A stretch of 64,000 bases of DNA from Herbidospora daliensis (GTDB taxonomy: Bacteria; Actinomycetota; Actinomycetes; Streptosporangiales; Streptosporangiaceae): contig NZ_BBXF01000004.1 in NCBI RefSeq assembly GCF_001570585.1, forward strand, positions 310,001 to 374,000, given 5' to 3'. Position numbers and translations under genes: made by a program. The notes under the pieces were generated by a model. The model was not told the origin of the DNA. It saw only the letters and a program-made list of their open reading frames with translations, and did not search any database. Positions 18,355 to 46,594 of the stretch are shown here, piece after piece. Numbering within the stretch: the stretch's first letter is position 1; each line of letters begins with the position of its first letter.

Positions 18355-18891
18355 TCAGGCGGGTGGCGGCCGCAGACCGTCCATCAAAAGATCGAGCAGC
18401 CGCCCCGCCTGGGCCCGCTGACCGGGTTCGCCGGCGATGAGGGAGATGCCTCCCAGCGCCATCAGCACGTCGAGGGCCGCGACGTCGTCGCGGCCCGAAG
18501 CGTCGGCGGCGAGCAGCGCGGCGAGCGCGCCGGTGATCCGGGCGCGGATCGCGAGCCGTTGCTCCTCGTCGCTCGCGAGCACGGCCTTCAGCGCGTCGGC
18601 CATGGCGCGCTTGGCCGCCAGGAAGCCGAGGAAGTCCTCCATCCAGGGGCGCAACCGCGCGCCCGGCGCCTCGGCCTCCGCGCAGATCCGGTCGACCTCG
18701 CCGCTGTAGACGGCCCAGACCAGGTCTTCCCTGGTGGGGAAGCGGCGGTAGAGGGTGCCGATGCCGACCCCGGCCTCCTTGGCGATCTCCCGCAACGAGG
18801 CGTCGGCGCCGTCGCGGGCGAAGGCCGCACGGGCGGCGGCCAGCACCAGATCCTGGTTGGCCTTGGCGTCGGCGCGCAGGCGGTCGCCCAC
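18355..18891 (-). CDS. TetR-family repressor
   Basis: 178 residues. The N-terminal helix-turn-helix is classic: AARAAFARDGADASLREIAKEAGVGIGTLYRRFPTREDLV is the region, with recognition helix GVGIGTLYRRF. The C-terminal ligand domain is short. The gene is divergent from an SDR gene, and the 96-base gap holds matching inverted repeats, so repression of the SDR and of itself is likely. The inducing ligand is unknown. Confidence 0.92.
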   Translation of the reverse strand: MGDRLRADAKANQDLVLAAARAAFARDGADASLREIAKEAGVGIGTLYRRFPTREDLVWAVYSGEVDRICAEAEAPGARLRPWMEDFLGFLAAKRAMADALKAVLASDEEQRLAIRARITGALAALLAADASGRDDVAALDVLMALGGISLIAGEPGQRAQAGRLLDLLMDGLRPPPA

Positions 18892-18987: not shown

Positions 18988-19752
18988 ATGACGGGAAGAC
19001 TGAGCGGGACCGTCGCCCTGGTGACGGGCGCGAGCAGCGGGATCGGCGCGGCCACGGCGCGCGCCCTGGCGGCCGAGGGCGCGGCGACGGCGCTGGTGGC
19101 CCGGCGCGCCGACCGGCTCGCGGAGCTGGCGGCGGAGATCCGGGCAGGCGGCGGCACGGCGGCGGTCGTGCCGGCCGACGTCGCCGACCGCGATCAGGCG
19201 CGGCGCGCGGTCGGCCGGGTCGTCGACGGCTTCGGCCGCCTCGACATCGTGGTCAACAACGCGGGCCTGGCGCTGGTCGGCCCGGCCGAGGCGGCCCCCG
19301 AGGACGAGTGGGACCGCATGCTCGCGGTCAACGTCGAGGGCCTCCTGCACGTCACCCGGGCCGCGCTCCCCCACCTCGTCGGCGCGGCGGCCGACTCGTC
19401 CCGGCGGGTCGCCGACCTGGTCACGATCAGCTCGACCGCCGGCCGGGTCGCCCGCGCCGGACAGGCCGTCTACAGCCTGACCAAGTCGGGGGTGAACGCC
19501 TTCTCCGAGTCGCTGCGGCAGGAGCTGCAGCCGAAGCGGGTGCGCGTCGGGATCGTGGGGCCCGGGACCGTCGCCACCGAGCTCTCCACCCACCTGCGCG
19601 ACGGGATCAGGGAGGCCGTCGCCGGTCAGATCGGCGCGCTGGAACTGCTGCGCCCCGAGGACGTCGCCGACGCCGTCGTCTACGTGGTCACCCGGGAGCG
19701 GCGGGTCGCGGTCAACGAGATGCTGGTCAGGGCCGCCGAGCAGACGTGGTGA
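18988..19752 (+). CDS. Short-chain dehydrogenase/reductase (TetR-controlled)
   Basis: 254 residues, classical SDR. It shows the NADP(H)-type glycine motif TGASSGIG near the start, an Arg-rich beta-2 end (ARRADR), NNAG, the catalytic Ser in ISSTAG and YSLTK with catalytic Tyr and Lys. A GAGGAGGA site precedes ATG 18988. The substrate is unknown. It is convergent with cysN and separated from it by one base. Its own TetR regulator suggests it is independent of the carrier-protein operons. Confidence 0.9.
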   Translation: MTGRLSGTVALVTGASSGIGAATARALAAEGAATALVARRADRLAELAAEIRAGGGTAAVVPADVADRDQARRAVGRVVDGFGRLDIVVNNAGLALVGPAEAAPEDEWDRMLAVNVEGLLHVTRAALPHLVGAAADSSRRVADLVTISSTAGRVARAGQAVYSLTKSGVNAFSESLRQELQPKRVRVGIVGPGTVATELSTHLRDGIREAVAGQIGALELLRPEDVADAVVYVVTRERRVAVNEMLVRAAEQTW

Positions 19753-19753
19753 C

Positions 19754-20911
19754 TCAGCCGACCGAGATCATCCCGGCCGACCGGGTCGCGCCGTCGCCCG
19801 GGTCGATCAGCAGGCAGGCGCCGGTGATCCGGCTGTCGGCGTAGTCGTCGACCGCGAGGTCGGCGGAGGTGCGCACGACCACGTCGCCGATGTCGTTGAC
19901 GCCCAGCGAGCCGCCCGCGCCGATGTGCTCCACCACCGCGTGGACGGTCCGGGTCGTGTGCTTGACCAGCACCTTCTCCCCCACCGTCAGCGCCTTCTCG
20001 TGCAGGTGGCAGACGGTCGCGCGCAGTTCGCGGGTGGGCTCCGGCGCGGTGGCGGCGGGTGAGATGAGCGCGCCGCGCGAGACGTCGAGGTCGTCGGCCA
20101 GCCTGACCGCGATCGACTGCGGCGCCCACGCCATCGCCACCGGCTCCCCCAGCACGTCGATGCCGGCCACCGTCGTGGAGTGGCCGCCGGGCTGCACGAC
20201 CACCCGTTCGCCGACGTGCAGGATGCCGCCCGTGAGCTGGCCGGCGTAGGCGCGGCGGCCGCGGGTCTTGATGACGTACTGGACCGGGAGCCGCGCGGGC
20301 AGGCCGGTCAGGTCCTCACCCGCTTCGGCCGTCTCCAGGAACTCCAGCACGGTCGGGCCGCCGTACCAGTCCATGTGTTCCGACGGGGTCACCACGTTGT
20401 CGCCGGTCAGGGCCGAGATCGGGATGGCGGTCACCTCGCCGGGGTAGTCGAGGTCGTCGGCGATCGACGCGAAGACCTCCTCCGACCAGCCGACCAGGTC
20501 CATCTTGTTGACGGCCAGGACCAGCGAGGGCACCCGCAGCAGCCCGGCCACGGCGGCGTGGCGGCGGGTCTGCTCGGTCACGCCCCTGCGGGCGTCGACC
20601 ACGAGCACGACCAGCTCGGCCGTCGAGGCGCCGGTGACCATGTTGCGCGTGTACTGCACGTGGCCCGGGGTGTCGGCCAGCACGAACCTCCGGCGCGGGG
20701 TGGCGAAGTAGCGGTAGGCGACGTCGATCGTGATGCCCTGTTCCCTCTCGGCGCGCAGGCCGTCGGTCAGCAGGGCCAGGTCGCTCGGGGAGGCGATCTT
20801 CTCCAGCTGGTCGGCCATGACCGACTTGGAGTCGTGCAGCAGCCGTCCGACCAGGGTCGACTTGCCGTCGTCGACGGAGCCGGCGGTGGCCAGCCTGAGC
20901 AGTGCGGACAT
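19754..20911 (-). CDS. cysN: Sulfate adenylyltransferase large (GTPase) subunit
   Basis: 385 residues. G1 GSVDDGKST, G2 region REQGITIDVAYR, G3 DTPGH, G4 NKMD are all present, followed by two beta-barrel domains, as in CysN. With CysD it makes adenosine 5'-phosphosulfate (APS) from sulfate and ATP at the cost of GTP. The protein is short and has no fused APS kinase (CysC) domain, and no cysC is in the window. Its start overlaps the cysD stop as TGATG. Placement in an operon with a sulfotransferase points to pathway-dedicated sulfate activation. Confidence 0.92.
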   Translation of the reverse strand: MSALLRLATAGSVDDGKSTLVGRLLHDSKSVMADQLEKIASPSDLALLTDGLRAEREQGITIDVAYRYFATPRRRFVLADTPGHVQYTRNMVTGASTAELVVLVVDARRGVTEQTRRHAAVAGLLRVPSLVLAVNKMDLVGWSEEVFASIADDLDYPGEVTAIPISALTGDNVVTPSEHMDWYGGPTVLEFLETAEAGEDLTGLPARLPVQYVIKTRGRRAYAGQLTGGILHVGERVVVQPGGHSTTVAGIDVLGEPVAMAWAPQSIAVRLADDLDVSRGALISPAATAPEPTRELRATVCHLHEKALTVGEKVLVKHTTRTVHAVVEHIGAGGSLGVNDIGDVVVRTSADLAVDDYADSRITGACLLIDPGDGATRSAGMISVG

Positions 20912-21789
20912 CAGAAGTACCCTTCTCGTTTGCGGTCCTCCATGGCGGCCTCGGCCAGCCGGTCGTCGGCGCGGGTCGCGCCGCGTTCGGTGATCCGCGA
21001 GGCCGCGATCTCCTCGACGACCTCGCCGGGCGTGCGGGCGGTCGACTCGACCGCGCCGGTGCACGACATGTCGCCGACCGTGCGGTAACGGACCGTGCGG
21101 CGCACCAGCCGCTCGCCCTGGCCGCCCCACGCGCCGGGGCACAACCACATGCCGCGCCGGTCGAACACCTCGCGTTCGTGGGCGTAGTAGATCGACGGCA
21201 GCGCGATGTCCTCGGCCGCGATGTACTGCCAGACGTCGAGCTCGGTCCAGTTCGACAGCGGGAACACGCGCACGTGCTCGCCCGGGTTGTGGCGGCCGTT
21301 GTAGAGGTTCCAGAGCTCGGGGCGCTGGCGGCGCGGGTCCCAGCCGCCGAACTCGTCGCGGAGGGAGAACACCCGCTCCTTCGCGCGGGCCTTCTCCTCG
21401 TCGCGCCGCCCGCCGCCGAAGACGGCGTCGTGGCCGCCGGTCTCGATGGCGTCGAGCAGGGGCGTGGTCTGCAGGCCGTTCCTCTCCGGTACGTCCGGCA
21501 GCGCGCCCCGGTCGATGTAGTCCTGCACCGAGGCGACCTCCAGCCGCAGGCCCGCCGTCACGCGGTCGCGGAACTCGATGACCTCGGGGAAGTTGTGGCC
21601 GGTGTCGACGTGCAGGAGCGGGAAGGGCACCGGCGCGGGGGCGAACGCCTTCACGGCCACGTGCAGCATGACGATGGAGTCCTTGCCGCCGGAGAACAGC
21701 AGCACGGGCCGCTCGAACTCGCCGGCGGTCTCGCGCATGATGTGCGCGGCCTCGGCCTCCAGCGCCTCCAGACAGGTCGTGGTGGTCAT
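20911..21789 (-). CDS. cysD: Sulfate adenylyltransferase small subunit
   Basis: 292 residues with the PP-loop SGGKDS, the substrate loop FGGGRRDEEKARAKER and LSNWTELDVWQYI, hallmarks of CysD. It catalyses the adenylyl transfer to sulfate while CysN hydrolyses GTP. Its start overlaps the LysZ-LysK stop (TGATG), its stop overlaps cysN. The full-length, conserved motifs predict an active enzyme feeding the sulfotransferase encoded upstream in the same operon. Confidence 0.95.
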   Translation of the reverse strand: MTTTTCLEALEAEAAHIMRETAGEFERPVLLFSGGKDSIVMLHVAVKAFAPAPVPFPLLHVDTGHNFPEVIEFRDRVTAGLRLEVASVQDYIDRGALPDVPERNGLQTTPLLDAIETGGHDAVFGGGRRDEEKARAKERVFSLRDEFGGWDPRRQRPELWNLYNGRHNPGEHVRVFPLSNWTELDVWQYIAAEDIALPSIYYAHEREVFDRRGMWLCPGAWGGQGERLVRRTVRYRTVGDMSCTGAVESTARTPGEVVEEIAASRITERGATRADDRLAEAAMEDRKREGYF

Positions 21790-23663
21790 CACGCCGCCCT
21801 CTCGACGAGCCGGGTCTCCGCCGCGATCCACTCGGCGACCGCGCGCGACAACACCGCGCGGGCCCGCCGGTATTCGACCGCGTCGAGGTGCTCGTGCGGG
21901 GTGTGGTCGAGCTTGGCGTCGCCGGGGCCGTACGCCACCATCGGCACGCCCTGCCACGTCGTGGCCAGCGTGTTCATGTCGCTGCTGCCCTTCTTGGCCA
22001 GGAACCGGTTGACGACGCCCTCGGCCCGGAAGGCCCGCGAGAAGGCCTTGACCAGAGGGCTGGTGCGGGCGGTGAGGTGGCCGGGGGTGGCCCGCAGCAC
22101 CTCGACCTCGACGGGATGGGCGACGTTCCTGATCAGCCGGGTCAGCTCGTCGACCGACAGGTCGGCCGGCACCCGGACGTCCAGGACCGCTTCGCCGCGC
22201 TGCTCGTCGCCGCCGTTGACGGCGTGGATGCCGAGCACGGCCAGCAGGGCGTCGGGCCCCGCCTCGGCCAGCGCGGCGCGCAGCCGGGCGAGCACGTCGA
22301 CCATCTGGTCGGCCGCCGTGGTGACGCCCTGGCCGGCGGTGTGCCCGACGGGGTCGGCGACGGCCACCCGGACCTTCAGCAGGCCGTAGTAGCCGATGGT
22401 CAGCGCGCCCGCGCCCGACGGCTCGCCGATGACGACGGCGTCGGCCCGGTAGTGGTCGCGGACGAAGAACGCGCCCGCCGAGGTGATCTCCTCCTCGACC
22501 GCGCCGACCACCCTGACCTGGGCGTCGGGCGGCACGTCGAGCTCGTGCAGGGTCTCCAGGTAGGCCACCAGGCTGCCCTTGGCGTCGACGCAGCCCCGGC
22601 CGGAGATGGTGCCGCCGTCCCAGCGGACGGGCCAGCGGTGCGGGACGGTGTCGAGGTGGCCGAGCATGAGGAGGCGGCGGCGGCCGGAGCCCTTCGAGGC
22701 CACGAGGTTGCCCGCCGCGTCGATCTCGGCGTCGATGCCGCGGTCGCGGCACCACGAGACCAGGTATCCGGCCAGCTCGCGCTCGTCGCGGGAGACCGAG
22801 GAGATCTCCACGGCCCGCGACAGCAGCGTGAGGTCTCCGGCGGGCGCGGGGGCCCGCCAGAACCGGGTGCCGACCTCCAGCGAGTGGGGGCCGGTGATCG
22901 CCACGTCGGCGCTGCCGTCGAGGGCGATCTCGGCCGCGCGCACCTTCTGCCGCATGCGGCCCTTCGCGTAGCGCAGCCCCTCGCCTCGGGCGAGGTCGGA
23001 GAGGCCGGAACGATCATCGGCGGGATCCGCCAGCAGGCCCGGCGTCCCCGTCACCAGCCGCAGGTGGTCGGCGTCGAGCGCGTTGGCCAGTTCGGCCGCC
23101 AGCACGTCGGCGTCGACGTTGAGCGGCGACCCGCCGTCGGAGGCGGCGGCGGGAGGCGAAAGGCAGACGACGTCGAACGCGTCGAGCAGGGTGGCCAGGC
23201 AGTCGGCGTCCACCGACGAGACGACCCCGGCGCGGTGGTCGCGGACGACCACCGTCCGGCCGTCGTCCACCGCCTTCAGCGGCGGGTTGGGCCGGGCCGT
23301 CACCAGCGAGCCCGCCTGGGCGGTCGAGGTGAAGCCGGTCAGCTCGCGCGCGGTCAGCGCGGCCTGCACGCGGGGCAGGGTGACCCGCTCGTAGGCGGCC
23401 ACGATGTGGTCCATCTCCTCCGGCGGGCAGTAGCGCGCCGTGGAGCCGTTCTTCAGGGTGAGCGAGCGCACCGGGCGGCCGGCGGCCGCGTAGTGGGACT
23501 CGATGCCGGCCGCGCCGCCCGCCACCAGGAGGATCCTCGCGCCGCGCCCGCGCAGGCGGGCCACTTCGTCGAAGACGCTCTCGTGGGCGAGGCTGGCACT
23601 GCCGATCTTGATGACGTAGAGGGCCGCCGTGTGGGTGGTGGCGACCTCACCGAGAACAGACAC
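21789..23663 (-). CDS. LysZ-LysK fusion: carrier-protein amino acid kinase plus M20 hydrolase
   Basis: 624 residues from GTG 23663. Residues about 1-270 are an acetylglutamate-kinase-like LysZ module (YVIKIGSAS, LLVAGGAAGIES, a C-terminal YAKGRMRQKVRAA). It would phosphorylate the side-chain carboxylate of an amino acid held on LysW. Residues about 280-620 are a LysK-type M20 hydrolase with metal ligands in GHLDTV, GCVDAKG, VEEEITSAG, IGEPSGAG and a late His in HTPHEHLD; it would release the finished amino acid from LysW. These are separate proteins in Thermus lysine biosynthesis; here first and last carrier steps are joined. Confidence 0.9.
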   Translation of the reverse strand: MSVLGEVATTHTAALYVIKIGSASLAHESVFDEVARLRGRGARILLVAGGAAGIESHYAAAGRPVRSLTLKNGSTARYCPPEEMDHIVAAYERVTLPRVQAALTARELTGFTSTAQAGSLVTARPNPPLKAVDDGRTVVVRDHRAGVVSSVDADCLATLLDAFDVVCLSPPAAASDGGSPLNVDADVLAAELANALDADHLRLVTGTPGLLADPADDRSGLSDLARGEGLRYAKGRMRQKVRAAEIALDGSADVAITGPHSLEVGTRFWRAPAPAGDLTLLSRAVEISSVSRDERELAGYLVSWCRDRGIDAEIDAAGNLVASKGSGRRRLLMLGHLDTVPHRWPVRWDGGTISGRGCVDAKGSLVAYLETLHELDVPPDAQVRVVGAVEEEITSAGAFFVRDHYRADAVVIGEPSGAGALTIGYYGLLKVRVAVADPVGHTAGQGVTTAADQMVDVLARLRAALAEAGPDALLAVLGIHAVNGGDEQRGEAVLDVRVPADLSVDELTRLIRNVAHPVEVEVLRATPGHLTARTSPLVKAFSRAFRAEGVVNRFLAKKGSSDMNTLATTWQGVPMVAYGPGDAKLDHTPHEHLDAVEYRRARAVLSRAVAEWIAAETRLVERAA

Positions 23664-23666
23664 TTC

Positions 23667-24434
23667 TCACACTCCTCTGGTGTTGCCGCCGTCGGCCAGG
23701 AAGACCGTGCCGGTGACATAGGCGGCCTGGTCGCTGGCGAGGAAGGCGGCCAGCGCGCCGAAGTCGTCGACGTCGCCGATCCGGCCCAGCGGGATGCGCC
23801 GGGCGACGGCGGCGAGCTCCTCCTCCACGGAGGCGCCGAACTGCTCGTCGAGGATCGGGGTGCGGTGGAAGCCGGGGGCCAGCACGTTCACCGTCACCCC
23901 GCTCGCGCCCAGCGCCGAGACCAGGCCCTTCATGTAGCCGAGCAGGCCGAGCCGGGCCACCGACGACAGGCCGCTCTCGGGGTGCGGCTGCCGGACCGAC
24001 TCGGAGGCGATCATCAGCAGCCGGCCCCAGCCGTCCTTCTTCAGGTGGGGCAGGGCGGCCAGCGTCAGGGCGATGTGCGGGATCAGGTTGGCGTCGATCG
24101 CGGCCCGGTAGTCGGCCACGCCGAACGCGTCGACGGGGCCGAACGGCACCCCGCCGGAGTTGGTCACGAGGATGTCGACGCCGCCGAGCGTGGCGGCGGC
24201 GTCGCGGACCCAGGCGGCCGCGGCGTGCTCGTCGCACAGGTCGACGGGCACGCTCAGCACGTCGCCGTCGCCCATGGCGCTCACCTCGACGTGGGCGCGG
24301 GCGAGCTTGCCGGGGTCACGGCCGCAGATGGCCACGCTGGCCCCCTCGGCGGCCAGGGCCTTGGCGACGCCCAGGCCGAGGCCGCTGCTGGAGCAGGCCA
24401 CCAGGGCGACCCGCCCTCTCAGGCGCAGATCCAT
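23667..24434 (-). CDS. Short-chain dehydrogenase/reductase of the carrier-protein pathway
   Basis: 255 residues. The nucleotide motif is ACSSSGLGLG, with NAG degenerate (TNSGG) and a 'DANLIPHI' loop. Catalytic Ser is in MIASES. Where YxxxK is expected the sequence reads SGLSSVARLGLLGYMKGL, so the usual YxxxK is not obvious. Similar variant SDRs occur in antibiotic clusters. It could reduce or oxidise the C2-extended ketone or hydroxyl of the LysW-bound intermediate. It lies 11 bases after the sulfotransferase gene and 3 bases before the kinase-hydrolase fusion. Confidence 0.8.
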   Translation of the reverse strand: MDLRLRGRVALVACSSSGLGLGVAKALAAEGASVAICGRDPGKLARAHVEVSAMGDGDVLSVPVDLCDEHAAAAWVRDAAATLGGVDILVTNSGGVPFGPVDAFGVADYRAAIDANLIPHIALTLAALPHLKKDGWGRLLMIASESVRQPHPESGLSSVARLGLLGYMKGLVSALGASGVTVNVLAPGFHRTPILDEQFGASVEEELAAVARRIPLGRIGDVDDFGALAAFLASDQAAYVTGTVFLADGGNTRGV

Positions 24435-24445
24435 GGCATGTCCCC

Positions 24446-25348
24446 TCAGGTCAGAATCGGGTAGCCGTACCTGCCGAGCAGGGGCAGGGCCGGGGCCGTG
24501 GCGGCGGCGCGGGCGCGGGCCGGCAGCCCGGTGCGCCAGCGTTCGTCGGCGCGGATGCGCGCCGGGCCGGCCGACAGCCGGTCGGGGTTGCCGGTGACCG
24601 TGTGGTTCACGCTCAGCGTGACGTTGCCGTCGGCGTCGGCGGGCGGGTCGTCGTCGAGGCCGGCGAACCGCAGCACCCGGGCGAGCGTGCCGCGCGGGTC
24701 GCGGCACAGGTCCTCGTGGCGCACCCGCAGGTAGCGGTCGGGGGCGGCGTGGCCGGACAGTTCGGAGGCGAGGTTGAAGCCGGTCCAGAAGCCGCTGCTG
24801 CGGGCCGGGCTCATCGGGTCGATGTAGTCCTTGGCCTTCGTGTAGGAGAACGCGGTCGCGCGCGGGTCGCGCACCATGTGCAGCACCCGCACGTCGAGGT
24901 CGGCGCGGCCCAGCAGGGCGGCCGCCTCGGCCGGGAACTTCGACCCGTCGACGACGAGCCGTTCGCCGCCGTGCGAAGCGAGGGTGCGGTAGATGTCGGC
25001 GGTGCGCCCGACGGCCTCGGCCACCCCGGGCGCGGTCGGCACCCGGCCGGTCGACTCGGCGATCCGGTCGCGGGTGTGGCGGGTGCGCAGCAGCGCCCGC
25101 TGCTGGAGCGTCATCAGCCGCGCCTCGCCCTCGGACGAGGTGATCACCTTCGACCACAGCTCACACGCGGTCACGTCGGCGCCGCAGCCGCAGGTCGAGT
25201 TGGTGCCGGACTTCAGGATGCCGTTCTGCCACAGGTAGTGCAGCTCGCCCGCGTGCAGCACGCCGGGCAGCTCGCCCAGCACGTTGCCGAGCATGGTGCT
25301 GCCGCTGCGCAACCAGCCGGTGATGTAGAGGACACGCGGCTCACCCAT
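24446..25348 (-). CDS. PAPS-dependent sulfotransferase
   Basis: 300 residues. The 5'-phosphosulfate-binding loop is GWLRSGSTMLGNVL at the N-terminus; the 3'-phosphate site is VRDPRATAFSYTKAKD in the middle. A Cys-rich insertion (CGCGADVTAC) follows the first motif. It transfers sulfate from PAPS to a hydroxyl. In vazabitide and azinomycin pathways, sulfation of a hydroxyl next to an amine sets up sulfate elimination to an aziridine, and the neighbouring LysW genes make that the leading model. The start overlaps the end of the HK97-fold gene by 8 bases. Confidence 0.88.
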   Translation of the reverse strand: MGEPRVLYITGWLRSGSTMLGNVLGELPGVLHAGELHYLWQNGILKSGTNSTCGCGADVTACELWSKVITSSEGEARLMTLQQRALLRTRHTRDRIAESTGRVPTAPGVAEAVGRTADIYRTLASHGGERLVVDGSKFPAEAAALLGRADLDVRVLHMVRDPRATAFSYTKAKDYIDPMSPARSSGFWTGFNLASELSGHAAPDRYLRVRHEDLCRDPRGTLARVLRFAGLDDDPPADADGNVTLSVNHTVTGNPDRLSAGPARIRADERWRTGLPARARAAATAPALPLLGRYGYPILT

Positions 25349-26165
25349 GCCACTTCACCGCCATCAGGTGCTGCGGCAGGTGCACCGCCAGCCCGATCCT
25401 GGACGTGGCCCGCACCGCCCCCGGGACCAGCGCGATCGACGCGACGCCCGGCATGAGCAGCGTGCAGGCGGCCCGGAAGTCGCCCATGAGCAGGGTGTCC
25501 TTGGGCATCATGCGGGTGCGCGAGACGGTGATGCCGGCGTTCTGGAACCGCACCAGCAGGTCGTCGCGGACCATCTTCCAGTACGTCTCCGGGTGCGCCA
25601 CCACGCCGTCGCACGACCCGCCGGTCTCCTCGATCTCCCCGGCGGCCCGGGTGACCGTGGTCGCCAGGTCGTCGTGGCTCTCGGCCGAACGGCTGCCCGG
25701 CAAGCCCAGCAGGCCGGTGATCGCGCCGTCGGCGGTGCCGTGCAGCAGCGACTCGTTCTCGACGACCGACAGGCGCACCAGCACCCGGTAGTCGACGTAG
25801 GCGGCGAGCAGCGCCGGCTCGCCGGCGACGCCGTCGGGCAGCGGCACCTCGACCGACAGGTCGGTCAGCGGCGCCCTGGCCAGCCGGGGCGCGAACGCGG
25901 CCTCCGGGGTGGCGCCGTAGGCGGTGCCCGCCTCCTCGATCCGGCCCTGGGGCGGCTCGTGGACGTAGGACACCGACCCGTCGGCCACGTCGGCGGTCTT
26001 CAGCAGGTGCCGGACCGTGTAGCGCGGCCGGGAGGCGAACAGCGGGAACGCGGCCGGCAGGTGCAGGCCGAACGGGACCTCGCGGGCCCCGGCGGCCACC
26101 TCGGCGGCGAACCGCTCGCCCGGCGACTGGGCGGCCGGGGCTTCTTGCAGGGCGATCGCTCGCAT
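25341..26165 (-). CDS. HK97-fold, encapsulin-like protein of a biosynthetic cluster
   Basis: 274 residues, first gene of the leftward carrier-protein operon. By pattern it follows the phage major-capsid/encapsulin fold: an N-terminal arm, a P-domain-like stretch with YVDYRVLVRLSVVENESLLHG and GLLGLPG, then VVAHPETYWKMVRD, MMPKDTLLMGDF and VPGAVRATSRIGLAV. No portal, terminase or tail genes are nearby, arguing against prophage. Family 3 (natural-product) encapsulins are known from surveys to sit in clusters with sulfotransferases, SDRs and amino-group carrier proteins, exactly this setting. The alternative is an aziridine-forming protein of the Vzb10/11 or AziU3/U2 kind, which I cannot exclude. 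A GGAGGG site precedes ATG 26165. Confidence 0.7.
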   Translation of the reverse strand: MRAIALQEAPAAQSPGERFAAEVAAGAREVPFGLHLPAAFPLFASRPRYTVRHLLKTADVADGSVSYVHEPPQGRIEEAGTAYGATPEAAFAPRLARAPLTDLSVEVPLPDGVAGEPALLAAYVDYRVLVRLSVVENESLLHGTADGAITGLLGLPGSRSAESHDDLATTVTRAAGEIEETGGSCDGVVAHPETYWKMVRDDLLVRFQNAGITVSRTRMMPKDTLLMGDFRAACTLLMPGVASIALVPGAVRATSRIGLAVHLPQHLMAVKWHG

Positions 26166-26389
26166 TGAGCCCTCCTAGGGATATACGACTCCCATTGAGC
26201 CTATGAATTGCGCGAAACAATGTCCGCATCGAATCGAGTAGGAGCGCTTATGCTCAGTGAACCGCCTGTTTATACGGCCCCCGATAAGCGCGGGAATTCA
26301 CTTCGATCGGCAACCCTTATTGGCGGTTCGACGCCGATTCTGGTTACGGTTGAAACGCCGATATTTCCCCGACGACATAGGGACGAGCC
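26166..26389. promoter_or_regulatory. Divergent promoter region of the two carrier-protein operons
   Basis: 224 bases separate the HK97-fold gene (leftward) and lysW (rightward). The region is noticeably more AT-rich than the genes, as expected of promoters, and holds no credible gene. I could not identify a confident -35/-10 pair or a strong palindrome. Co-regulation of both operons from here is inferred from the divergent layout. Confidence 0.55.
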
Positions 26390-26572
26390 ATGCAGAAGGT
26401 TATGAACGCCCCCGAGTGTCCCGAGTGCGCGGCGCCGGTCTCCATCGACGCCGACGCGCGGGTGAGCGAGATCGTCGAATGCCTCGACTGCCGCAGCGAG
26501 CTGGAGATCTCCTCCGTCACGCCGCCGTCCCTCACCCTCGCCCCCGAGGTCGAAGAGGACTGGGGGGAGTAA
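26390..26572 (+). CDS. lysW: LysW-type amino-group carrier protein
   Basis: 60 residues. Two CxxC zinc pairs (CPECAA and CLDCRS) and the C-terminal EEDWGE, whose last Glu side-chain carboxylate is the attachment point for the amino group of the substrate, are diagnostic. Intermediates stay attached to this carrier while the side chain is modified. An AGGGACGAG ribosome site precedes ATG 26390. The stop overlaps lysX as TAATG. Primary lysine or arginine pathway partners are missing nearby, so it serves secondary metabolism. Confidence 0.95.
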   Translation: MQKVMNAPECPECAAPVSIDADARVSEIVECLDCRSELEISSVTPPSLTLAPEVEEDWGE

Positions 26573-27420
26573 TGCGGTCCGGCCGTCGCCTCGCCGTGCT
26601 CGCGTCCCGGGTGCGGTTCGAGGAGAAGCAGATCATGGCCGCGCTCGACCGGCGCGGCGCGACCTCCGTCCACCTCGATCCCCGGTCTCTGGTCGTGGCC
26701 GACGGCGTTTCCCGGACCGATTTCGTGCTGAACCGCGAGGTCGGCCATTACCGGGCCCTCTACGCCGCGAGCGCGCTGGAGTCGGCGGGGGCGACGGTGC
26801 TGAACAGCGCCGCCGCCACCCACGTCAGCGGCGACAAGTGGCTGACCACCTCGGCGCTCCTGGCCGCCGGCCTGCCGACCCCCCGCACGGCCCTGGCCAT
26901 GACGCCCGAGGCGGCCGTCGACGCCCTCGACCAGATCGGCTACCCGGCGGTCGTCAAACCGCTGGTCGGCTCGTGGGGACGCCTCGTCACCGCGCTGCCC
27001 GACCGGCCCACCGCCACGGCCGTGCTCGAACACGTCGCGGCCCTGCCCTCACCCCAGCAGCACGTCGTCTACGTGCAGGAACTCGTCGAGAAGGCCGACC
27101 GGGACATCCGGGTGCTGGTCGTCGGCGGCGAGGCGCTGGGCGCGACCTACCGGCGCGGCGACGAGTGGCGCACCAACGTCGCCCGGGGCGCCGTCTCGAC
27201 CCGGTGCGACCTGACCGACGTCCACACGAAGCTCGCCGTCGCCGCCGCCGACGCGGTCGGCGCCGAGATCGCCGGGGTCGACCTGCTGGAGGACGCCGAC
27301 GGGCACCTGACCGTCCTGGAGGTCAACGACCGCGTGGAGTTCCGCGGCTTCCAGGACGCCCACGAGATCGACGTCGCCGACGCGATCGCGTCCTACGTGC
27401 TGAGGAGGGCCGGGGCATGA
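26572..27420 (+). CDS. lysX: LysX-type ATP-grasp ligase
   Basis: 282 residues, RimK-like ATP-grasp. Visible features are FEEKQIMAALDRRG at the N-terminus, SGDKWLTTSALLAAGLPTP, the VVKPLVGSWGRLV nucleotide loop, and C-terminal Mg ligands in AGVDLLED and LEVNDRVEF. It joins the alpha-amino group of an amino acid to the C-terminal Glu of LysW. The transketolase downstream implies glutamate as substrate, by analogy to DADH biosynthesis; aminoadipate is the alternative. It overlaps lysW and lysY. Confidence 0.93.
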   Translation: MRSGRRLAVLASRVRFEEKQIMAALDRRGATSVHLDPRSLVVADGVSRTDFVLNREVGHYRALYAASALESAGATVLNSAAATHVSGDKWLTTSALLAAGLPTPRTALAMTPEAAVDALDQIGYPAVVKPLVGSWGRLVTALPDRPTATAVLEHVAALPSPQQHVVYVQELVEKADRDIRVLVVGGEALGATYRRGDEWRTNVARGAVSTRCDLTDVHTKLAVAAADAVGAEIAGVDLLEDADGHLTVLEVNDRVEFRGFQDAHEIDVADAIASYVLRRAGA

Positions 27421-28451
27421 TCCGATGCGCCGTCGTGGGAGGCGCCGGCTACATCGGCGGCGAACTCCTGCGCATCCTCACCGGGCACCCATCGGCCGAG
27501 CTGGTGGCCACCACCTCACGGCGGCTGCGCGGCCGGCAGATCGACGGCGCCCACCCCAACCTGCGCGGCCGCACCCGGCTCGCCTTCGTCTCCGACGAGG
27601 AGCTCGACCAGGACGGCCCCTACGACGTGCTGTTCCTGGCCACCCCCCACCGCGAGACGATGCGGCGGATGCCCGAGTTCCTCGGGCTGGCCGCGACCGT
27701 GGTCGACCTGTCGGGCGACTTCCGGCTGCGCGACCCGGCGGTCTACGCCGACTACTACGGCGTCGAGCACGCCGCCCCCGAGCTGATCGGGGGCTTCACG
27801 ACCGGCGTACCGGAGCTGCACCGCGAGGAACTCCAGGTGGCGAGCCGCATCAGCGTGCCCGGGTGCATGGCCAACGCCGGCATCCTGGCGCTGACCCCGC
27901 TGGCCGAGGCCGGGCTGATCGACGGCGAGCTGACCGTCGACGCCCGCACCGGGTCGAGCGGCGCCGGTGCGACCGCCGGGGCGGAGAACCTGCACGCCGA
28001 ACGCAGCGGCGCGCTGCGCGTGTTCGCGCCCACCCGGCACCGGCACGAGGCCGAGATCGCCCAGGCCACCGGGCTGCCGGTGCGGATGACGGCGACCGGC
28101 GTCGAGGCCGTGCGCGGCGTGCAGCTGCTCTGCAAGGCCCGGCTGGCCGGGGGCGCCGACGAGCGCGCGATCCGGTCGGCCTACCGCGACCGCTACGCCG
28201 ACGAGCACTTCGTGCGGGTGGTCGCCCACCGGCGCGGGCTGCACCGGTTCCCGGACGCCAAGATCCTCTCCGGCTCCAACTTCTGCGACGTCGGCTTCGC
28301 CCTCGACGCCGGTTCGACCACGGTCACCGTGATCGCGGCCCTCGACAACCTCGTCAAGGGCGGCGCCGGCAACGCCGTGCAGTGCATGAACATCCGCCAC
28401 GGCCGTCCCGAGCGCGAGGGCCTGGAGTTCGTCGGCCTGCACCCGAACTAG
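27417..28451 (+). CDS. lysY: LysY-type acyl-phosphate reductase (semialdehyde dehydrogenase)
   Basis: 344 residues, ArgC/LysY family. N-terminal NADP loop VVGGAGYIGGELLR, catalytic Cys in SVPGCMANAG, a substrate loop HRHEAEIAQ and the C-terminal DNLVKGGAGNAVQ are all present. It reduces the LysW-bound acyl phosphate made by the LysZ module to a semialdehyde, which the split transketolase can extend. Start overlaps lysX stop as ATGA. Confidence 0.94.
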   Translation: MIRCAVVGGAGYIGGELLRILTGHPSAELVATTSRRLRGRQIDGAHPNLRGRTRLAFVSDEELDQDGPYDVLFLATPHRETMRRMPEFLGLAATVVDLSGDFRLRDPAVYADYYGVEHAAPELIGGFTTGVPELHREELQVASRISVPGCMANAGILALTPLAEAGLIDGELTVDARTGSSGAGATAGAENLHAERSGALRVFAPTRHRHEAEIAQATGLPVRMTATGVEAVRGVQLLCKARLAGGADERAIRSAYRDRYADEHFVRVVAHRRGLHRFPDAKILSGSNFCDVGFALDAGSTTVTVIAALDNLVKGGAGNAVQCMNIRHGRPEREGLEFVGLHPN

Positions 28452-28459
28452 GAGAAGCG

Positions 28460-29290
28460 ATGACCACCACCATCGACGCCCCTCCGGCGGCCGGGACGGC
28501 CGCGCGGATCAGGGAGCACGTCGTCAACCTGTGCGCCGGCCCCGAGGGCGGCCACCTGGGCGGCTCGATGTCGCTCGCGGAGATCCTCGCCACCCTCTAC
28601 ACACGGGTGCTGCGGGTCGACCCCCTCGACCCGGCGTCCCCCGGCCGCGACGTGCTGCTGCTCAGCAAGGGCCACGGCGGGCTGGCGCTCTACGCCGCGC
28701 TGACCGAGGCCGGGTTCTTCCCCGCCGACCGGCTCGCCGAATACGGCCGGCCCGGCGGCGAGTTCATGGCCCACCCGCACGCCGAGATCCCCGGCGTCGA
28801 GATGCCCTCGGGCTCGCTCGGCCACGGGCTGGCGCTGGCGGTCGGCTTCGGCCTCGGCTTCCGGCTCGACGGCGCCGACCGGCGCTGCTTCGTCGTCATG
28901 GGCGACGGCGAGCTCCAGGAGGGCTCGGTCTGGGAGGCCGCCTCGGTGGCCGCCGCCCAGCGGCTCGACACCCTGGTCGCGGTCGTCGACCGCAACCGGC
29001 TCCAGATCACCGGCGCGACCGAGACGATCGACGCGCTCGAACCGCTGGCCGACCGCTGGTCGGCTTTCGGCTGGACGGTACGCCAGGTCGACGGCCACTC
29101 CTGCGAGGAGCTGGAGGCCGCGCTGACCGAGCCGCCGGCCCCGGGCCGCCCGACGGTCGTGATCGCGCACACCGTGAAGGGCAAGGGCATCCCGTTCGTC
29201 GAGGACCAGCCGCGCAGCCACTACGCCAAGCTCGGCGAGCGCCAGCACGCCAAGGCCCTCGCCGCACTGCGAAGGGGGGCCGCGTCATGA
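28460..29290 (+). CDS. Transketolase, N-terminal (TPP-binding) subunit
   Basis: 276 residues. GGHLGGSMSLAEILATLY, SKGHGGLALYAAL and the TPP/Mg motif GDGELQEGSVWEAA...DRNRLQ match the N-terminal half of split transketolases. With the next gene it forms a complete enzyme that moves a two-carbon ketol unit to an aldehyde. In the vazabitide pathway a split transketolase extends LysW-glutamate semialdehyde to a seven-carbon chain; the same is inferred here. A GGAGAAG site precedes ATG 28460. Confidence 0.93.
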   Translation: MTTTIDAPPAAGTAARIREHVVNLCAGPEGGHLGGSMSLAEILATLYTRVLRVDPLDPASPGRDVLLLSKGHGGLALYAALTEAGFFPADRLAEYGRPGGEFMAHPHAEIPGVEMPSGSLGHGLALAVGFGLGFRLDGADRRCFVVMGDGELQEGSVWEAASVAAAQRLDTLVAVVDRNRLQITGATETIDALEPLADRWSAFGWTVRQVDGHSCEELEAALTEPPAPGRPTVVIAHTVKGKGIPFVEDQPRSHYAKLGERQHAKALAALRRGAAS

Positions 29291-30213
29291 CCGCGTCCTC
29301 TCGCGAGGTCTACCGCGACGCCGTGCTCGACCTGCTCCCCCGCGACGAGCGGCTGGTCTGCCTCGACTCCGACACCGGCCTGTTCGACGCGGCCGCCTTC
29401 CCCGAGCGCTACCTCAACCTCGGCATCGCCGAGCACACGCTGATGGGCGCGGCCGCCGGGCTGGCCAAGTCGGGCCGGATGCCGCTGGTCAACACGATGG
29501 CGGCGTTCGCGTCGTCGCGGGCCAACGAGGCCGTGAAGATCGACATCGCCCTCAACAACCTGCCGGTGCGCATCGCCGCGACCCATTCGGGCGTGTCGGC
29601 CGGCCACCTCGGGCCGACCCACCACGCGCTGGAGGACCTGGCCGTGATGCGGACCCTGCCCAACATGACCGTGGTCGTGCCCGCCGACGGCCCGCAGACC
29701 GGGACCCTGTTCCGGCAGTCGCTGCGCGTCAAGGGCCCGGTCTACCTGCGGCTCGGCCGCAACGCGACGCCCGAACTGCCCGCCGCGCCGCCGGTCACGC
29801 TCGGCCTGGCGCAGGTGCTGCGCGACGGCTCCGACGTCACGATCGCCGCCTGCGGGCCCTACCCCGTGCTGGCCGCGCTGGAGGCCGCCGACACCCTCGC
29901 CGCCGAAGGCGTCCGCGCCTCGGTGCTGAACGTGCACACGGTGAAGCCCCTCGACGTCGCCACGATCGCCGCGCACGCCCAGCGGTCGGGCGTCGTCGTG
30001 ACCGTCGAGGAGCACTGGCGCAACGCCGGATTCGGCGCCGCCGTCGCCGAGTCGCTCGCCGAGATCACGCCCAGCCTGGTGCTCCGGGTTGCGATGCCGG
30101 ACGCGTTCGTCCCCGTCTCCGGAGGGCAGCGGTATCTGACCGAACGCGGAGGCGTCACCTCGGCCGCGGTCGCCGCCAAGGCCCGATCAGCGCTGGGGAG
30201 GTCGCCGCGATGA
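29287..30213 (+). CDS. Transketolase, C-terminal subunit
   Basis: 308 residues. The pyrimidine-binding domain carries the catalytic Glu in [42 protein letters not shown] and the C-terminal transketolase fold (LNVHTVKPLD, VTVEEHW) follow. It overlaps the N-terminal subunit by ATGA, ensuring equal expression. Role as for the preceding gene. Confidence 0.93.
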   Translation: MTASSREVYRDAVLDLLPRDERLVCLDSDTGLFDAAAFPERYLNLGIAEHTLMGAAAGLAKSGRMPLVNTMAAFASSRANEAVKIDIALNNLPVRIAATHSGVSAGHLGPTHHALEDLAVMRTLPNMTVVVPADGPQTGTLFRQSLRVKGPVYLRLGRNATPELPAAPPVTLGLAQVLRDGSDVTIAACGPYPVLAALEAADTLAAEGVRASVLNVHTVKPLDVATIAAHAQRSGVVVTVEEHWRNAGFGAAVAESLAEITPSLVLRVAMPDAFVPVSGGQRYLTERGGVTSAAVAAKARSALGRSPR

Positions 30214-31676
30214 CCACCATCATGGACGACCTGCGCCGGCATCCCCCCGGCAAGCTCGCCCTGGTCTGCCACCAGGACGGCGGGGTCGTGGAGCTGACGT
30301 ACGGTGAGCTGCTCGACCGCGTCGACCGGACGGCCACCCTGCTGCGCCGCCTCGGCGTCGGCAGGGGCCAGGTCGTGACGTTGCAGCTGCCCAACTCGTG
30401 GCAGCTGGCGGCGCTGATCCTGGCCTGCTACCGGATCGGGGCGGTTCCCGGGCCGGTGGTGCCGATCATGCGGCGGCGTGAGGTCCAGTTCATGCTGCGG
30501 CTGACCGAGAGCCCCGTGTACGTCGCCCGCCGGGAGTTCCGCGGGTTCTCGTACCGGGACATGATCGCCTCCGTGGACGCGCCGAACCTGCGTCACACCC
30601 TGTTCGTCGACGACCTGGAGCTGCCCGAGGCCGACCTGGCCGGGGCCGAGGAGTCGGGTCCCGGCGACCCGGCGCAGGTCGCCTTCACCTCCGGCACGAC
30701 CGGCGAGCCGAAGGGCGTCGTGCACACCCACGACAGCCTCTACGCGATGAACCGGGCGCAGGCCGACGTGCTCCACCTGACCGAAGGCGTCGTCACAGCC
30801 ATGGGGTCGCCGACGACGCACCAGGCCGGGTTCACCTGGAACCTGTTCATGCCGCTGCTGCTGGGCGGCACCGCCGTGCACGTCGAGTCGTGGGACGCCC
30901 ACCGGATGCTCGACCTCCTCCAGGAACGCGGCGTGACCTTCTTCATGGGCGCCCCGACGTTCCTGGCCGACCTCATCGAGGCGCAGGCCGAGCGGCCCCG
31001 GGACCTGGCGAAGCTGGAGACGTTCGCGACCGGCAGCGCGCCGATCGCGCCCTACCTGGTCGAACGCGCCCGCGACGTGCTCGGCTGCCGCCTCTACGCC
31101 CTGTGGGGCATGACCGAGAACGGCTGCGTCACCATCACCCGGCCGGAGGACCCGCCGATGCGGGCCGCCGAGAGCGACGGAACGGTCGTGCCGGGCATGG
31201 AGGTGCGCATCACCGCCGAGGGCCGCTTACAGGTCAGGGGCGCGTCGCAGTGCGCCGGCTACTTCCGGCGCGAGCACCTCTACCGGGCCTGCCTCACCGG
31301 CGACGGCTGGTTCGACACCGGCGACCTGGCCCGCGACGACGGCCACGGCGGCATCCGGATCACCGGCCGCGCCAAGGACGTCATCATGCGCGGCGCGGAG
31401 AACATCCCGGTCGTCGAGGTCGAGGCCGCCCTGCTGCGGCACTCCTCCGTCCGCGACGTCGCGGTCGTCGGCTACCCCGACGCGCGGCTCGGCGAACGGG
31501 CCTGCGCGGTGCTGGTCGCCCCTTCGGGGCTGACGCTCGACGACCTCCGCACGCACCTGGCCGGGCTCGGCATGGCCAAGCAGTACTGGCCCGAACGGGT
31601 CGAGCTGGTCGAGGCGCTGCCGCGCACGCCGTCCGGGAAGATCCAGAAATTCGCCCTGCGGGAGGGGCTGCGATGA
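30210..31676 (+). CDS. Acyl-CoA synthetase (AMP-forming)
   Basis: 488 residues, ANL superfamily. It has the P-loop FTSGTTGEPKGVVHTH, A5-like LYALWGMTE, GWFDTGDLARDD, GRAKDVIMRGAENIP and the C-terminal catalytic Lys in RTPSGKIQKFAL. It resembles cyclohexanecarboxylate- and other carboxylic-acid-CoA ligases. The substrate is probably a free acid feeding the acyl-CoA dehydrogenase encoded next. It overlaps the transketolase gene by ATGA, so it belongs to the carrier-protein operon. Confidence 0.9.
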   Translation: MTTIMDDLRRHPPGKLALVCHQDGGVVELTYGELLDRVDRTATLLRRLGVGRGQVVTLQLPNSWQLAALILACYRIGAVPGPVVPIMRRREVQFMLRLTESPVYVARREFRGFSYRDMIASVDAPNLRHTLFVDDLELPEADLAGAEESGPGDPAQVAFTSGTTGEPKGVVHTHDSLYAMNRAQADVLHLTEGVVTAMGSPTTHQAGFTWNLFMPLLLGGTAVHVESWDAHRMLDLLQERGVTFFMGAPTFLADLIEAQAERPRDLAKLETFATGSAPIAPYLVERARDVLGCRLYALWGMTENGCVTITRPEDPPMRAAESDGTVVPGMEVRITAEGRLQVRGASQCAGYFRREHLYRACLTGDGWFDTGDLARDDGHGGIRITGRAKDVIMRGAENIPVVEVEAALLRHSSVRDVAVVGYPDARLGERACAVLVAPSGLTLDDLRTHLAGLGMAKQYWPERVELVEALPRTPSGKIQKFALREGLR

Positions 31677-32812
31677 ACTTCGACTTCACACCCCAGCAGG
31701 AGACGCTGGCCAAACGGGTGCGCGAGTTCGCCGCCGACCGCGTCGCGCCCTTCCGGGCCGAGAGCGACCGGCGGGCCGAATACCGTCCGGGCCTGCTGGC
31801 CGACCTGGCCGCCGAAGGGCTCTTCGGCGTGCGCGTCCCGGAGGAGTTCGGCGGCCAGGCGCTGGACGCCGTCAGCGCCGGCATCGTGCTCGAAGAGCTC
31901 GCGGCGGCCGACCTGTCGGTCTGCTACCCGGTGCTCAACGCGGCGCTGGTCGGCGGCGTGCTGGCCGCGAACGGCAGCCCCGCCCAGTTGGCCCGCTGGT
32001 TGCCCGGCATCGCCGCCGGTACGTCGATCGTCGCCCTCGGCCTCACCGAGGCCGGCCACGGGACCGACGCGGCCGCCATCGAGACCGTCGGGGAACACGC
32101 CGCCGACGGCTGGCGGCTGACCGGCGAGAAGACGTCCATCATGGCCACCGCCTACGCCACCCACGGGCTGCTGTTCGCCCGGACCGGCGGCGCCGGGGCC
32201 CGGGGCATCAGCGCCTTCTACACCCCGCTCCACGGGGTGCGCCGGGAACTGCACACCGACCTGGGCTGCCGCTCGGGCGGCCGGGGCCGGTTCAGCCTCG
32301 ACGGCCTGCGGGTCGCCGACGACGACCTCGTCGGCCGGCCGGGCGCGGGGTTCGTGGAGGTCATGCGCGGCTTCGGGGTCTCCCGGGCGCTGATCTCCCT
32401 GATGGCCGTCGCCGTCGCACGGGCCGCCCTCGACGAGGCCATGGCCCACGCCGGACGGCGCGAAGCCTTCGGCCAGCCGATCGGCCGGTTCCAGTCGGTG
32501 GCGTTCCCGCTGGTGGAACACGCGACGATGCTGCACGCGGCCCGCCTGGTCTCCTACGAGGCCCTGGCCGCCGCCGACGCCGGCCGCGACCCCCGGCTGC
32601 CCGCGAACATGGCCAAGTGGTGGGCCCCCAAGGCGGCCATGGAGGCCGTGCACCAGTCGCTCCTCACGATGGGCCACCTCGGCTGGTCGGAGGACGGCCC
32701 GGTGGCCCAGCGCCTTCGCGACGTCATCGGCCTGCAGCTGGCCGACGGAACCGCCGCCGCCACCAAACTCGTGGTCGCCCGTCAACTGCTCGGACGGGAG
32801 GCCGCCCCGTGA
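31673..32812 (+). CDS. Acyl-CoA dehydrogenase
   Basis: 379 residues. N-terminal helical domain (FTPQQETLAKRVREFAADRV), FAD-binding middle (LGLTEAGHGTDAAAIET, LTGEKTSIMATAYA) and C-terminal helices (REAFGQPIGRFQSVAFPLVEH) are all intact. The usual catalytic Glu segment is not clearly readable. With the preceding ligase it would activate an acid and introduce an alpha,beta double bond. Last gene of the rightward carrier-protein operon; it ends 8 bases from the convergent CGNR gene. Confidence 0.9.
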   Translation: MNFDFTPQQETLAKRVREFAADRVAPFRAESDRRAEYRPGLLADLAAEGLFGVRVPEEFGGQALDAVSAGIVLEELAAADLSVCYPVLNAALVGGVLAANGSPAQLARWLPGIAAGTSIVALGLTEAGHGTDAAAIETVGEHAADGWRLTGEKTSIMATAYATHGLLFARTGGAGARGISAFYTPLHGVRRELHTDLGCRSGGRGRFSLDGLRVADDDLVGRPGAGFVEVMRGFGVSRALISLMAVAVARAALDEAMAHAGRREAFGQPIGRFQSVAFPLVEHATMLHAARLVSYEALAAADAGRDPRLPANMAKWWAPKAAMEAVHQSLLTMGHLGWSEDGPVAQRLRDVIGLQLADGTAAATKLVVARQLLGREAAP

Positions 32813-38294: not shown

Positions 38295-38305
38295 AAGGAC
38301 TGATC

Positions 38306-40411: not shown

Positions 40412-40418
40412 GGACGGC

Positions 40419-44319: not shown

Positions 44320-44543
44320 GTGTCAAGGAAGACCTGCGCAGCACCGTCGCCGATCTGGTCGGCGCCGACCCCGCGTCCCTCGCCGACGACGACAACCTGG
44401 TCGTGCTGGGGCTGGGCTCGCTGGAGATGATGCGCCTGGTCACGAAGTGGCGGCGGGCCGGCCTGAAGGTCGAGTTCCGCGAGCTCGCGGCCGTGCCGAC
44501 CATCTCGGCCTGGTCGGCCCGCCTGGAGGAGGCGAGCGCATGA
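44316..44543 (+). CDS. Stand-alone aryl carrier protein
   Basis: 75 residues. The phosphopantetheine attachment is Ser35 in [11 protein letters not shown], within a typical four-helix carrier fold. It overlaps both the ligase before it and the amidohydrolase after it as ATGA. It would hold the salicyl thioester for the KAS III-like coupling step. Confidence 0.92.
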
Positions 44544-46578: not shown

Positions 46579-46594
46579 AAGGAGCAAGAGAGTC

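Follow-up and report, generated by a model that had tools for sequence, protein, structure and literature searches.

A natural-product-type (Family 3) encapsulin linked to a sulfotransferase in an amino-group carrier protein cluster of Herbidospora daliensis

The stretch of DNA described here, the window, comprises 64,000 nucleotides of Herbidospora daliensis (Actinomycetota, Streptosporangiaceae; assembly GCF_001570585.1, contig NZ_BBXF01000004.1, positions 310,001 to 374,000) from a genome of 8.5 Mb (G000). Its gene of interest lies on the minus strand at 25341..26165 (ATG at 26165, stop ending at 25341) and encodes a 274-residue, HK97-fold shell protein (P0002) of the Family 3, or natural-product, encapsulins. 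The gene shows a match resembling a ribosome-binding site and a GC content at third codon positions of 0.98, and was present in 6 of 7 genomes of a genus sample. Its product is kept in five Herbidospora species, the closest named relatives, at 93–97% identity and with a ratio of nonsynonymous to synonymous substitutions (dN/dS) of 0.11–0.29, indicating purifying selection, and therefore it is not a chance open reading frame (ORF). The original prediction, made from the letters of the sequence, had placed the gene at exactly these coordinates and read it as an HK97-fold, encapsulin-like protein standing first in an operon with a sulfotransferase and a short-chain dehydrogenase/reductase (SDR) inside a carrier-protein cluster, a description that the analysis bears out in each part.

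The shell gene is the first of a leftward operon in which genes for a sulfotransferase, an SDR, a LysZ-LysK fusion, CysD and CysN follow in that order, all on the minus strand. The sulfotransferase gene (24446..25348; 300 aa; PF13469, E 1.8e-15) shares 8 nt with the encapsulin gene. Close behind it comes the gene of the SDR-family reductase (23667..24434; 255 aa), for which a longer same-frame ORF gave PF13561 and PF00106 and SDR structures in the PDB matched to E 8.9e-37. Downstream are encoded a fused LysZ-type kinase and LysK-type hydrolase (21789..23663; 624 aa; PF00696 and PF01546, with TIGR01902 above its cut-off and the LysW-pathway kinase models below theirs), a CysD-like sulfate adenylyltransferase subunit 2 for sulfate activation (20911..21789; 292 aa; PDB 1zun_A, E 4.2e-79) and a CysN-like sulfate adenylyltransferase large subunit (19754..20911; 385 aa; TIGR02034 at 431 bits for a cut-off of 336.1, scanned as a longer same-frame ORF). 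The LysZ-type and LysK-type parts, one fused protein in the window, are encoded by two genes in many encapsulin loci of Actinomadura and Myxococcota.

A divergent operon on the plus strand starts with the carrier protein itself, a LysW-like amino-group carrier protein (AmCP; 26402..26572; 56 aa; PF21344, E 1.1e-13). It continues with a LysX-type ATP-grasp ligase (26572..27420; 282 aa; PF08443 and PF22626), a LysY/ArgC-type semialdehyde dehydrogenase (27417..28451; 344 aa; PF22698 and PF01118), the N-terminal half (28460..29290; 276 aa; PF00456) and the C-terminal half (29287..30213; 308 aa; PF02779 and PF02780, scanned as a longer same-frame ORF) of a transketolase, an AMP-binding acyl ligase (30210..31676; 488 aa; PF00501) and an acyl-CoA dehydrogenase family protein (31673..32812; 379 aa; PF00441 and PF02771), all on the plus strand. 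Adenylation and carrier-protein genes lie further on, at 38306-40411 and 42787-44543. The Pfam scan of the called genes within 17.4–49.8 kb, some taken as a longer same-frame ORF and with 18355-18891 and 18988-19752 left out, returned biosynthetic, regulator or transporter families; as had been stated from the letters, no phage genes were found among the genes scanned, nor was an aminotransferase among the scanned cluster genes or a peroxidase- or ferritin-type family among the scanned neighbours. The run at 36199-49766, which contains genes for DAHP synthase, an isochorismatase (PhzD-like), a chorismate-binding/glutamine amidotransferase fusion (PhzE-like) and a chorismate-binding protein, together with two ketoacyl synthase III-like, AMP-ligase, carrier-protein, amidohydrolase and SDR genes, is possibly a dihydrohydroxyanthranilate-type half of the encapsulin cluster. 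A promoter and terminator scan of 26100-26450 found nothing, and no family was matched in a PADLOC scan.

A curated model, homology at profile level, the predicted structure and the surrounding genes all speak for membership of the shell protein in Family 3, in agreement with the natural-product encapsulin initially proposed. The curated model NF041188 (encap_f3) matches at E 8.2e-98 and 326.8 bits (cut-off 180) over profile positions 1-266 of 266; matches below this cut-off (e.g., in G076 and G077) were weak, lay mostly in longer open frames of 300–500 aa and are probably phage capsids. The HK97 fold was found both by profile search and in an AlphaFold2 model, the check that the original prediction had proposed; the model matches HK97 capsids, with 233 residues aligned to HK97 prohead I at a root-mean-square deviation (rmsd) of 2.3 and the N-terminal helix covered in several alignments to other encapsulin shells. 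The protein is related to phage capsids and most likely forms a closed shell. The opposing outcome named with the original prediction, a fold matching the azinomycin proteins AziU3/AziU2, was not seen, as the family profile gave no match to either at E<=1 in a PDB file that contains those chains and from which true homologues do retrieve them; they were also absent from the 50 best VIA-align structure matches listed for the model, which alone excludes nothing. The protein gave no match to PF05065 (Phage_capsid) at E<=0.1 in the Pfam scan and stayed below the cut-off of PF04454 (Linocin_M18; 13.6 versus 24.3 bits). Since PF05065 is given for some members only in the passages of the 2021 survey considered (PMC8346489), it does not define Family 3.

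Encapsulin and sulfotransferase show a near-obligate linkage, which may point to the purpose of the shell. A set of 345 genomes of the order, which yielded 82 family 3 genes, was also searched with the sulfotransferase of the window. A sulfotransferase of this type occurs within 10 kb of 69 of the 82 encapsulin genes, and one of either family discussed here within 10 kb of 80. Conversely, 69 of the 72 sulfotransferase matches of at least 205 bits have a family 3 gene within 7 kb, and the three others are 1.4–5.4 kb from a contig end, whereas none of the next 28 matches among those listed, which served as a control, is near an encapsulin (0/28). Eleven of the 13 remaining encapsulin genes adjoin a homologue (about 240 aa) of a PF19798 (Sulfotransfer_5) protein and an aldo/keto reductase in place of the SDR, PF19798 having been established by Pfam in three representatives of the eleven and the reductase in two; two sulfotransferase families, each with its own reductase family, thus accompany the encapsulin. 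The last two genes are 0.4–0.9 kb from a contig end, with neither partner on the available side. Compared with 20 unlinked sulfotransferases, the encapsulin-linked ones stand apart at 22 positions (at least 85% versus at most 25%), among them N22, N42, K173 and T252.

The same neighbourhood recurs outside the order. In a set of named genomes, the best 80 of 126 relatives with up to 10 kb taken on each side, the encapsulin loci span three phyla (Actinomycetota, Myxococcota, and Pseudomonadota), and a sulfotransferase of the window type lies within 10 kb in 76 of them by tblastn (75 by blastp labelling). The four loci without it are L081, which is cut by a contig end, and the true exceptions L103, L105, and L106 of Myxococcus. 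Encapsulin and sulfotransferase genes follow each other directly on the same strand in 49/80 loci; by blastp labels an SDR homologue is present in 70/80 and an AmCP in 41/80, and genes with the same best labels as the AMP-binding acyl ligase and the acyl-CoA dehydrogenase of the window occur in 64/80 and 43/80, respectively. Other enzymes vary: a transketolase pair is found in 42 loci, a DegT aminotransferase without transketolase or aldolase in 22, a DeoC-type aldolase in six, a transaldolase type in three and none of these in seven. On the encapsulin tree (79 rows) these five labels require at least 11 changes, some of which probably stem from short contigs.

Some of the named loci hold further genes next to the encapsulin. 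At L070:8645-9793, L075:8709-9857 and L080:8738-9880, a transaldolase-like gene and the encapsulin gene flank one for a protein of about 380 aa; no Pfam family was found in the L075 and L080 copies, and the 382-residue L075 protein, considered as a possible AziU-like protein, was rejected as such, its best PDB match being at E 0.16 and none being AziU. A lanthionine-synthetase-like protein (DUF4135 and LANC_like) is located between encapsulin and aminotransferase/sulfotransferase genes at L082:6603-9419 and in similar Actinomadura loci, and a berberine-bridge-type FAD enzyme and a carbamoyltransferase adjoin the encapsulin at L058:6737-9994.

The encapsulin, the sulfotransferase and the SDR are inherited as one module, apart from a module of carrier-pathway and transketolase genes. 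Pairwise distances were correlated over the 39 loci that have all seven genes, with 500 bootstraps over loci. Correlations within the first set range from 0.91 to 0.95 (encapsulin-sulfotransferase r = 0.95; encapsulin-SDR r = 0.91) and those among LysX, LysY and the two transketolase halves from 0.95 to 0.98, while values between the sets range from 0.50 to 0.61 (0.51–0.61 for the encapsulin). The encapsulin-sulfotransferase value exceeded the best encapsulin-carrier value in 500/500 bootstraps, and that of the SDR failed to do so in 0.2%. This split identifies the window cluster as a meeting of two modules.

In the transketolase clusters of the order, the encapsulin and AziU3 are not found together. 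Within 20 kb of 49 transketolase matches, 29 have only an encapsulin, 16 only AziU3, none has both and four have neither (Fisher's p 1.4e-9, descent ignored). One of these four, G018:C31, is less than 1 kb from a contig end and, to judge from gene order, probably completes an encapsulin cluster as its other half. Six genomes have both an AziU3 homologue and an encapsulin, but never less than 50 kb apart on a shared contig; G038 and G040, of the genus of the window, each contain an encapsulin cluster plus a separate AziU3-type transketolase cluster. Twelve of the 20 encapsulin-free transketolase matches were fetched as loci, and among them 10/12 have an AziU3 homologue, 7/12 AziU2, 10/12 a DegT aminotransferase of at least 80 bits and 7/12 a PF19798-type sulfotransferase homologue (Pfam was run on one). 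Two of the AziU3 homologues match solved AziU3 (E 1.6e-53 and 6.8e-71) and one AziU2 matches solved AziU2 (3.1e-35). Neither protein was found in any of 96 encapsulin loci within the stretches covered, some of these loci being duplicates of one genome; encapsulin, both partners, transketolase and AmCP occur together in 42/96, none of the 42 with a DegT of at least 80 bits. The PF19798-type sulfotransferase accompanies encapsulin and AziU3 modules alike, as two sister clades. In the genome of the window AziU3 gave no match at E<=1e-12. A class-wide set of 197 genomes contained two encapsulins above the cut-off (including that of the window), two AziU3 and six transketolase matches (one in the window, two beside AziU3 and three with neither), too thin a sample to replicate the exclusion.

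The interpretation favored here, with a probability of roughly 55%, is that a Family 3 encapsulin, most likely as a closed shell, serves the sulfation step of the cluster. Glutamate would be loaded onto the AmCP by LysX, then phosphorylated and reduced to the semialdehyde, to which the split transketolase, by homology to the azinomycin/vazabitide pathway, would add two carbons to give a C7 hydroxy-keto amino acid. Because no aminotransferase was found in the cluster, the SDR would deal with the keto carbon, possibly once the alpha-amino group has closed a pipecolate-type ring. The sulfotransferase, with the help of CysD/CysN, would then sulfate a hydroxyl, probably O7. The shell might enclose the sulfotransferase, perhaps together with the SDR, or receive its product, and would keep water and cellular components off the reactive sulfate ester and its derivatives until the next enzyme acts. 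We infer in this way shell assembly, the enclosed protein, the substrate and the position of sulfation. In the passages considered of the respective papers, the azinomycin route proceeds through a kinase, a reductase, a transketolase and an aminotransferase (PMC9570651), AziU3/U2 binds O7-sulfo 2,6-diamino-5,7-dihydroxyheptanoic acid (DADH; PMC11168924) and AziU3/U2 is called functionally an aziridine synthase (PMC12559475). The route of the window equals that of azinomycin up to the transketolase; beyond it, neither an aminotransferase, among the genes scanned, nor AziU3 was found, but an SDR, a sulfotransferase and the shell are encoded, together with the sulfate-activating genes of their operon. 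The original prediction had suggested that a shell could confine a reactive aziridine or sulfate intermediate; the sulfate part gains from the sulfotransferase linkage and from CysD/CysN in the operon, and a sulfated intermediate would fit the window pathway well, as judged from its genes, whereas the aziridine part is unsupported since AziU3 was not found in the genome and no aminotransferase was found in the cluster.

Several observations weigh against this interpretation. The loci are related by descent, so that the linkage counts are not independent, and linkage within one biosynthetic cluster is no proof of a shared step. The Myxococcus loci L103, L105, and L106 combine the encapsulin with non-ribosomal peptide synthetase (NRPS) genes and have no sulfotransferase of either type in the stretch covered. 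When L105 and L106 were extended, in a genome search that used PF13469 only, the nearest matches were about 22 and 26 kb away, one of them beside Wadjet-type genes (the contig of L103 is short); with neither a window-type sulfotransferase nor an SDR nearby, the two stand as exceptions, and Myxococcus loci without a linked sulfotransferase argue against a single rule. The tail of the window sulfotransferase is only four residues beyond the last conserved column. In relatives with longer tails, comparison at the DNA level (24 loci) shows that the tail ends shared among Myxococcota, Dyella, Nonomuraea and several Actinomadura loci coincide with the overlapping SDR start, and that the GE in the tails of Streptomyces and Actinomadura comes from a ribosome-binding-type GGTGAG or GGAG; as most conserved ends match the SDR start or its ribosome-binding site, they are no evidence for a loading peptide.

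Long tails are nonetheless a weak hint of cargo, C-terminal extensions of at least 20 aa being found in 19 of 75 encapsulin-linked sulfotransferases versus none of 20 unlinked ones, the median lengths of the whole enzymes being 305 and 311 aa, respectively; disordered termini of tailoring enzymes are taken as a hint of cargo in passages of the 2021 survey (PMC8346489). Four Streptomyces sulfotransferases beside encapsulins (L044, L045, L047, and L050) have long, unlike tails with the common end P-[LR]-W-P-G-E-x-x. The GE part overlaps the ribosome-binding-type sequence of the SDR gene and the P-[LR]-W-P part is outside it, and P-x-W-P could be a loading signal.

Myxococcus loci with no linked sulfotransferase combine AmCP, encapsulin, methyltransferase, ornithine-cyclodeaminase-like and NRPS genes; the AmCP was found in L106 and L132, and in three such loci in the comparison of the 96 encapsulin loci. 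At L132:17887-19986 and L134:3189-4172, the Myxococcus encapsulin/NRPS cluster has Wadjet-type neighbours, namely JetD and an SbcC/RAD50-like ATPase. Chloromyxamides, which contain 6-chloromethyl-5-methoxypipecolate, are the only product that the survey passages (PMC8346489) connect with a Family 3 cluster. From their gene content and the mention of Myxococcus in that paper, these loci would be the chloromyxamide cluster, and, as a structural argument, the C7 skeleton with a ring nitrogen would be that of the chloromyxamide residue.

Among the other explanations, confinement of an earlier reactive species, an aldehyde or hydroxy-ketone of the carrier-protein pathway, comes close to the aldehyde/ketone suggestion of Andreas and Giessen in 2021 in the passages considered (PMC8346489) and appears unlikely here: 51/80 named loci do have transketolase, DeoC- or transaldolase-type aldolase genes, and even where Myxococcus loci lack a sulfotransferase the AmCP adjoins the encapsulin, but encapsulin distances track the sulfotransferase and SDR rather than LysX, LysY and the transketolase, transketolase/AmCP clusters with AziU3 run without an encapsulin and the AmCP is found in about half of the named encapsulin loci. 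A further and rather unlikely reading is put forward tentatively, in which Family 3 encapsulins would be a compartmented version of the chemistry after sulfation. A transferable module of shell, reductase and sulfotransferase would replace the aminotransferase and AziU3/U2 in carrier-protein/transketolase pathways, and the lumen or family-specific residues would act directly on an O-sulfo amino acid. This might be a 6-(sulfooxymethyl)pipecolate that then loses its sulfate by displacement, which might also give the chloromethyl-pipecolate skeleton of chloromyxamides. That the encapsulin module substitutes for AziU3/U2 as a catalyst, conserved residues binding the O-sulfo amino acid and promoting displacement of the sulfate by ring closure or another nucleophile, is quite unlikely. 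The mutual exclusion in transketolase clusters, the lack of AziU3/AziU2 matches in the encapsulin loci and the sister clades of the PF19798-type sulfotransferase would suit it, as would R131, N137, R216, and D229, which are invariant in alignments A2 and A3 and not common to HK97 gp5 in a profile-derived alignment. These residues may, however, merely hold subunit contacts, and to our knowledge no encapsulin shell is a catalyst. AziU3-type clusters also carry a DegT aminotransferase that the window cluster lacks among its scanned genes, from which the substrates of the two probably differ.

Two further explanations deny the protein a present role as a shell. If the HK97 fold had been kept and shell-making lost, the protein could be a scaffold or partner subunit of the sulfotransferase; overlapping or close genes and tight co-inheritance would suit such a one-to-one complex, and no loading peptide is established, but a protein that no longer assembles should hardly have retained both the 233 residues that superpose on prohead I and the aligned N-terminal helix, which makes this very unlikely. 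That the gene is a leftover from the capsid of a phage or gene-transfer agent, to which the HK97 homology alone would lead, can be practically dismissed: tblastn against 50,697 phage records matched nothing at E<=0.01, viral contigs contained no relatives and PHROGs no family at E<=1, the gene is under purifying selection and in three phyla it sits in the same position next to biosynthetic genes.

Service of the sulfation step remains the favored role of the encapsulin, and the linkage narrows the Family 3 question to sulfotransfer by the neighboring enzyme and the fate of the sulfate ester. If the shell does protect or process such an ester, this would be a new use of encapsulins and a second solution to chemistry of the AziU3/U2 type.

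Compared with known systems, HK97 gp5 differs in being a phage protein, whereas the shell gene of the window is not in a phage; the HK97 cross-link residues, at what we take to be their positions, are not kept in the window shell alignment. Family 1 encapsulins (PF04454, e.g., Myxococcus EncA) differ as well, the shell protein falling below the PF04454 cut-off and having no peroxidase- or ferritin-type genes among its scanned neighbours. AziU3/AziU2 of azinomycin (PDB 7WUW and 7WUX), likewise from AmCP/transketolase clusters, bind an O7-sulfated C7 amino acid in the passages considered (PMC11168924), but have no sequence match to the encapsulin profile and never occur within 20 kb of the 29 encapsulin-linked transketolase matches. 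The closest likeness is to the Family 3 encapsulins of Andreas and Giessen (2021; PMC8346489; NF041188), with which the window shares the HK97 fold, a biosynthetic cluster, sulfotransferase, SDR and AmCP neighbours and no phage genes seen, and from which, as a member, it shows no difference. The main-text passages of that survey report no solved structure and merely suggest cargo; no PDB entry named Family 3 was among the profile-search matches in a 2026 copy of the PDB. The same passages call the role of the family unknown, in keeping with the direct function that the original prediction considered unproven and with the open-licence PMC literature covered. They also already name sulfotransferase-SDR pairs, AmCPs and possible aldehyde/ketone confinement, and the window gene is therefore a further member of the family. 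Three results of the comparison do not appear in these main-text passages, the supplement aside: a second pairing of sulfotransferase and reductase, inheritance in modules and the mutual exclusion with AziU3.

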